From positions 2,558,067-2,622,066 of the forward strand of contig NC_134511.1 in NCBI RefSeq assembly GCF_027942865.1: DNA of 64,000 nt. Reading direction: 5' to 3'. The stretch is from Odontesthes bonariensis (Eukaryota > Chordata > Actinopteri > Atheriniformes > Atherinopsidae). Position 1 is the first letter of the stretch; the number at the start of each line of letters is the position of its first letter. A program made the position numbers and the translations under genes. Of this stretch, positions 1,119 to 1,438 are shown piece by piece. The notes beneath the pieces were generated by a model. That model was not told the DNA's origin and did not search any database. It worked only from the letters and a program-made list of their open reading frames with translations.

Positions 1119-1438
1119 CTGGTGCAGCTCTGGATCTTTCTCCACACTGGGGACAGGAGGAAGCAGACTGGTCCCAGTATGAGCCTCCTGAGGGAGCAGA
1201 CTGGTCCCAGTATGAGCCTCCTGAGGGAGCAGACTGGTCCCAGTATGAGCCTCCTGAGGGAGCAGACTGGTCCCAGTATGAGCCTCCTGAGGGAGCAGAC
1301 TGGTCCCAGTATGAGGGGATGCACTGTCTGCAGAACCAGTGTCCACAGCTGGCAGAGACCGGATCCTTCAGGACGTCCTGACACAGAGCACAGCAGGACA
1401 GCTGCTGCTCCTCACAAACACCACTCCTCTTCCTCCCT
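1119..1438 (-). CDS. NLR gene A RING exon with five 11-residue repeats
   Basis: 320 nt, exactly 66 nt longer than the gene B exon (254 nt), the difference being two more 33-bp units. RING ligands [13 protein letters not shown] and CPQC are intact. Five [15 protein letters not shown] units (1168-1310) sit between CRQC and CPQC. Ends in phase 1 at CACCAG|GTCAG. Confidence 0.75.

Follow-up and report, generated by a model that had tools for sequence, protein, structure and literature searches.

A 33-bp coding minisatellite lies inside the RING finger of a subfamily of fish NLR genes, between zinc ligands C6 and C7, and its unit number ranges from 1 to 15 between genes of a single genome. The usual view of a RING domain is of a compact fold whose zinc ligands are tightly spaced. 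Here a coding minisatellite enlarges a RING loop across a fish NLR subfamily, where the variation in length is most likely tolerated and possibly used. The window that we analysed is a stretch of 64,000 nucleotides, contig C7:2558067-2622066 of the genome assembly (945 Mb in 187 contigs), where C7 is a contig label and not zinc ligand C7.

Two genes on the minus strand of the window, which we call A and B, carry the repeat. Gene B is an NLR within the window itself, as FISNA (PF14484, 93.7 bits), NACHT (PF05729, 103.1 bits), NOD2_WH and NLRC4_HD2 all score above their Pfam cut-offs in one large exon (27539..29315, ends counted by hand), with acceptor TTCAG/CA in phase 1 and donor GTGAGT; the slash marks the splice point here and below. 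Its RING exon is at 31433..31686 (Pfam zf-C3HC4_4, 41.5 bits), with N-terminal-repeat exons at 32384..32503 and 33095..33214. Downstream of the NACHT exon a regular expression picks out four LRR-motif exons as far as about 21.3 kb: two with approximate ends, 26094..26237 and 21632..21748, are also weak tblastn matches (E 0.37 and E 0.49), and two are placed by the core motif only (25116..25142 and 21342..21368). The gene A RING exon is at 1119..1438 (zf-C3HC4_4, 39.5 bits) and has acceptor GACAG/A and donor CAG/GTCAGA, splice sites that gene B shares. Gene A also has an N-terminal-repeat exon of about 40 amino acids at 2143..2262 (120 nt) and a further one at 6327..6446, while its NACHT exon is outside the window, at contig C7:2546691-2548463, 10.7 kb downstream of the RING match, with an open frame of 638 aa and 97% identity to that of gene B.

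The intron phases of these exons fit together, with phase 2 at the end of the N-terminal exons, phase 2 to 1 across the RING exon and phase 1 at the start of the NACHT exon. From the splice sites and phases we infer that the RING exon is spliced to NACHT, and skipping of a phase 2 to 1 exon would therefore shift the frame. The open frame MKTCVD upstream of the RING exon was considered as coding sequence and rejected, because six loci carry a one-base change just before the acceptor (TTGCAG for TTGACAG) and the stretch reads as intron. No B30.2 domain was seen in the window, either as a PRY motif by regular expression or by Pfam in the seven minus-strand frames of at least 110 aa between 11.6 and 20.4 kb, searches that broken or shorter exons would escape. 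Other minisatellites occur near the NLR genes, outside the described exons, at 2515-2678, 18662-18858 and 30491-30723 (units of 20, 52 and 21/47 bp respectively). The window also contains LINE-type long open frames at 36006-41240 (+), of which the 1081-aa frame 37995-41240 (+) looks by eye like a reverse transcriptase, and at 59664-62871 (-), where frame 59664-61259 (-) matches Pfam RVT_1. Three histone-like frames lie on the plus strand (49444-49896, 53129-53467 and 55011-55463), by eye two H2B-like and one H4-like.

Tandem Repeats Finder gives a 33-bp array of 4.8 copies at 1157-1315 in gene A (99% match, score 311) and of 2.8 copies at 31471-31563 in gene B (98% match, score 179). In minus-strand translation gene A reads CIP followed by four full 11-residue units, and gene B CIT followed by two, each with a truncated last unit before C7, giving C6-C7 distances of 55 and 33 residues. 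This bears out the first-pass annotation, which had described a 33-bp in-frame unit present five times in gene A and three times in gene B between C6 and C7; its coordinates for the arrays (1168-1310 and 31491-31562) point to the right places, though the true arrays are slightly wider. It was also right that the exon changes length by an exact multiple of 33 with frame and ligands kept: the RING exons measure 320 nt in A and 254 nt in B, a difference of exactly 66 nt, and in both genes the eight ligands of a C3HC4 RING are all present in the correct order with a Pfam score above the cut-off. The full units, four in A and two in B, are identical in DNA. No difference is found at the 93 aligned sites of the two arrays, yet gene A has two whole units more; outside the array 2 of 158 counted sites of the RING exon differ, as do 2.0% and 2.4% of sites in the adjoining introns. 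A possible splice acceptor inside each unit (CTCCCTCAG/G) was rejected, since by reasoning from the reading frames the frame entered there would not fit the NACHT exon.

To place the two genes in their family we used a protein search of the whole genome, which yielded at least 49 NLR-type RING exons, taken as the listed matches at 63% identity or more among 156 matches, with extra pieces of counted loci merged. Matches at 36-51% identity, mostly with long open frames that look TRIM-like, were left out. The family totals are lower bounds, because 150 of 518 RING candidates and 74 of 285 NACHT candidates were scored. At least 47 RING loci pair one-to-one with a downstream FISNA-NACHT exon, and all 47 scored NACHT exons at 87-100% identity to that of gene B are preceded on their own strand by a RING no more than 25 kb upstream. 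The RING loci without such a NACHT exon are L042 and, by elimination, L047. None of the 27 scored NACHT exons that are more distant (52-68%) has such a RING within 25 kb upstream, and as far as the scored exons go the RING is therefore a feature of one receptor subfamily.

Ligands C7 and C8 are kept in frame in 43 of the 49 RING exons. Eleven different C6-C7 distances occur among these 43, the shortest being 15 residues (one unit) and the longest 169 (15 units): 15 in 17 exons, 22 in two, 26 in 16, and 33, 37, 39, 55, 59, 70, 92 and 169 in one each. The survey of unit number over the NLR RING exons that the first-pass annotation had proposed thus returned 1 to 15 units, with one unit in 17 exons, two in 18, three in three, five in two, and six, eight and 15 in one each. 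When the genome was scanned for pairs of adjoining units, with up to 3 mismatches allowed, 57 places matched against 0 for the reversed control; every one of the 57 falls within a RING locus of this NLR family, and a chance repeat is thereby excluded.

By strict rules (acceptor, donor, length 2 mod 3, no stop) 40 of the 49 exons are intact, over lengths of 200-662 nt, with the acceptor at a common place (close variants of GACAG/A) and the donor CAG/GTCAG. Three others, L040, L041 and L043, have a different exon end at which, judged by eye, the next GT also gives phase 1. The variable in-frame minisatellite between C6 and C7 claimed for two NLR genes consequently holds across the family, and we did not find the sign of a dead exon that had been named with it, a single unit count shared by the other copies together with disrupted frames. 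Six copies are broken: in L050 ligand C7 is replaced by Phe, L051 is without C7 and C8, L047 has the sole frameshift among the 49, with a stop, and L044, L045 and L046 (contigs C25, C28 and C13) carry an insertion of about 1-2 kb at one common codon of the RING exon, after CALCQD. This insertion is perhaps a shared lesion that duplication or conversion carried from copy to copy. Open NACHT exons of 617-638 aa accompany the arrays of 5, 5, 6, 8 and 15 units; in the 15-unit gene (L007, C25:772965), whose array is the longest at 495 nt, the NACHT exon is open over 623 aa and begins 969 bases from the start of the RING match.

Unit number turns over fast. Three loci (L003, L020 and L048) have 3, 2 and 1 units with flanks, RING core included, only 0.35-0.9% apart, and length differs in 28 of the 48 pairs whose flanks are within 2%. 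On a tree of 40 of the 49 exons, built with the array left out of the alignment, array length changes at least 18 times, where the least possible is 10 and the mean after shuffling is 20.4 (as low as 18 in 19 of 200 shuffles), so length tracks ancestry weakly. The units themselves point the same way, counted without L003, which has a 6-nt insertion, and without the truncated final units in genes A, B, L027 and L032: P8A and Q5R each occur in 4 of the 15 units of L007 and in none of the other arrays counted, Y2D is private to an array on contig C27 and repeated within it, and P8S is common to many arrays. This is how a minisatellite turning over in place would look, by unequal exchange, slippage or conversion, which the pattern does not separate; within this one assembly tandem copy number varies between close paralogues, as in a coding minisatellite. 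Three pairs of RING loci are near-identical (0-0.35% apart) and represent recent duplications or assembly duplicates: L028/L029 (C2:3013468 on the plus and C2:3069851 on the minus strand) and L022/L023 are in opposite orientation, and L054/L055 in the same orientation, the last two pairs on contig C13.

All of the 40 strictly intact exons keep the frame, while intron indels often do not come in threes. Between close pairs, 508 of 543 indels in intron 2 and 107 of 175 in intron 3 are not multiples of 3, both being pair counts with shared history; intron 2 carries most of the contrast between exon and intron, because the intron-3 figure is close to the two thirds that lengths drawn at random would give. 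Across the 40 strictly intact exons pN/pS is 0.62 from the acceptor to C6, which suggests modest to moderate constraint on the RING residues, and 1.42 over the nine codons from C7, where changes are few. In the units we counted 12 types of base change that alter an amino acid and 1 that is silent, among 89 units, a two-base change being scored as two. Positive selection on unit residues was considered on this 12:1 ratio and on a pN/pS of 4.8 over 14 distinct units, and was rejected since these striking figures are not significant when each base change is counted once; the excess is not significant against neutrality (binomial P 0.14) or against the RING core (Fisher P 0.24). Frame and ligands are thus held, while selection on the number of units or on their content is unproven. 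Silent divergence among the 40 exons (pS 0.036) is well below the divergence of intron 2 (median 0.108, high in part because rows with unrelated insertions are included), a hint that gene conversion acts on the exon as a whole or that its silent sites are constrained.

Within the fold, the residues CITSYWDQ align with CITRWWED of TRIM39, and the first unit thus supplies the E2-contacting helix with its Trp. In c-Cbl the Trp of this RING helix has been described as an E2 contact (PMC3166285). With the helix in the first unit, the extra units lengthen the stretch after it. The array had been placed in the first-pass annotation at the segment that normally holds this helix, and that picture needs correcting: the helix is not replaced, as the first unit keeps it, and the idea that the array destroys the E2 helix is rejected on the finding that the first-unit Trp is retained in 42 of 43 exons (the exception is L032).

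A one-unit RING matches the whole Pfam zf-C3HC4_4 profile (49.9 bits, 1-42 of 42), while the best RING model for gene A, gene B and the 15-unit exon extends only from C1 to the helix. AlphaFold2 run without an alignment on two exon peptides gave no usable model (pLDDT 43.5 and 43.8). Among solved structures the one-unit RING is closest to the TRIM RINGs of TRIM30, TRIM34, TRIM39, TRIM5 and TRIM21. It is the RING alone that is TRIM-like; identity as a TRIM protein was rejected because the next identified coding exon encodes FISNA-NACHT and not a B-box or coiled coil. In L007 the 15-unit array also matches Pfam PF23348 (RDM3_C beta-solenoid, 44.7 bits against a cut-off of 35), probably from its regular spacing of Trp, Gly and Ser and not by descent. 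The C6-C7 distances of genes A and B exceed the usual RING loop length of 5-25 residues (PMC6536530); across the family 19 of 43 exons (15 and 22 residues) fall within this range and 24 (26 to 169) outside it, the range being usual and not strictly defining.

We consider it probable that this is a coding minisatellite at a permissive RING loop, with unit number mostly tolerated variation in a working RING. The subfamily would be one of fish-specific FISNA-NACHT-LRR receptors in which a TRIM-like C3HC4 RING exon lies between the N-terminal-repeat exons and the NACHT exon, and the permissive site would reach from the RING helix as far as C7. At this site a segment of 11 residues, 33 bp of DNA, may have turned into a minisatellite in which each gene gains and loses units as they are locally duplicated, deleted or copied onto one another. 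The helix and the Trp expected to touch E2 would come from the first unit, the last residues would still reach C7, and additional units would form a flexible, presumably disordered Ser/Gly loop with one Tyr and one Trp each. A unit of 33 bp without stops leaves the frame intact whenever it is gained or lost whole. Length itself could be close to neutral, while other changes would be removed by selection on frame, ligands and splice sites, which would act because the exon has to connect a phase-2 intron with a phase-1 intron.

Loop 2 of human TRIM52 sits between C6 and C7 of its RING. It has been described as a repetitive loop of 139 residues, against the usual 5-25, in what is called the largest known human RING, and it drives degradation of the protein (PMC6536530, PMC12022042). 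The first-pass annotation knew of no described expansion at this place, for which TRIM52 is the nearest precedent. By analogy with such control of degradation, length might be functional and selected in the fish genes too, with unit number tuning the receptor, for example its turnover or its self-association through spaced Tyr and Trp residues. This we regard as unlikely, though it has points in its favour: long arrays (5, 6, 8 and 15 units) stand at separate places in the tree (the 6-unit row on a long branch, its position unsure), the 15-unit loop holds 14 Tyr and 15 Trp in 169 residues, and the base changes in the units lean towards replacement. Weighing against it, that lean is not significant by either test, 35 of 43 exons have only one or two units, and the TRIM52 loop is acidic where the fish loop has about one Asp per 11 residues. 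A more specific form, in which unit number would be a germline dial and aromatic contacts on the RING would set the threshold for receptor clustering or turnover, is speculative and less likely still. If it held, the cluster of genes with 1 to 15 units would be a set of receptors of graded sensitivity, re-tuned by repeat mutation and not by point mutation.

Many active RINGs have a linchpin Arg directly after C8. In the fish family this residue is Gly in 43 of 43 exons, where the pattern used to find C7 allowed Gly or Ala at that position for 41 of them, and among the broken copies it is Ala in L046 and Glu in L047. E3 activity of these RINGs is uncertain, because Gly and not Arg follows C8; in TRIM52 the linchpin mutant R187A has been called catalytically inactive (PMC12022042). 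The RING could accordingly be dead as an E3, its exon kept mainly to bridge the phase-2 and phase-1 introns and the array drifting in a relic domain. The exon phases, the uniform Gly, the pN/pS of 0.62, the missing helix Trp of L032 and the absence of C7 from L050 and L051 are all compatible with a relic, which we nonetheless judge improbable: 43 of 49 copies retain the full set of eight ligands, which frame alone would not preserve, 42 of these 43 also retain the helix Trp, and TRIM34 likewise has Gly after C8. Pseudogene exons or an assembly artefact are very improbable, as six broken copies and the proneness of repeats to assembly error stand against 40 strictly intact exons, open NACHT exons and a longest array of only 495 nt, in an assembly that comprises 945 Mb in 187 contigs.

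A probably tolerated minisatellite in the RING of these receptors has partial counterparts in published systems. In TRIM52 the likeness is a RING with a greatly enlarged repetitive loop (PMC6536530), and the difference is that TRIM52 is one gene, a TRIM and not an NLR, whereas here units of 33 bp occur in 1-15 copies across a family; the 169 residues of L007 exceed the 139 of TRIM52, although the two counts may be defined differently. Among fish NLRs, the Walker A motif GVAGVGKT and the exon end of gene B match the table entry for NLR-C group 6 in a round goby study (PMC6988351), where the exon ends in L(I/V)P(A/V)VRNCRKA; the genes also share with that group separate N-terminal, NACHT and LRR exons and clustering. 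Group 6 is further marked by the lack of PYD and B30.2. The main text of that study differs in containing none of the terms 'RING domain', 'RING finger' or 'zf-C3HC4' and in naming no repeat inside an effector exon. RING-bearing fish NLRs are already known, since FISNA, NACHT, RING and LRR have been reported together for black rockfish NLRC3 (PMC10648357); the main text of that report does not contain 'tandem repeat' and mentions no variation in RING length.

Variable repeats near the N-terminus of fish NLRs have also been described, in zebrafish NLR-C genes whose N-terminal peptide-repeat exons vary in number (PMC4852459). In zebrafish each repeat is a whole exon whose motif spans about 30 residues, whereas the unit described here sits within a single exon and within a zinc-binding domain. 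Haddock and cod have coding short tandem repeats together with NLR expansions (PMC5894186), with units of 1-10 bp genome-wide, and 'RING' is absent from the main text of that paper. Among the matches listed for open-licence papers, as far as their texts could be searched, we found no RING described as carrying a tandem coding minisatellite that varies across a gene family, and the exact string SYWDQ had no literature match. A search for relatives gave 2 pattern matches in viral contigs and 40 in bacterial and archaeal genomes, none of them confirmed.

The subfamily offers a natural RING length series in one genome, in which the C6-C7 distance runs through 11 values from 15 to 169 residues while the other zinc-binding parts stay nearly constant. 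One can thereby test directly how far a RING tolerates changes in loop length, and whether such length plays any part in an immune receptor. For the large NLR families of fish, repeat mutation within the RING would be a further source of diversity.
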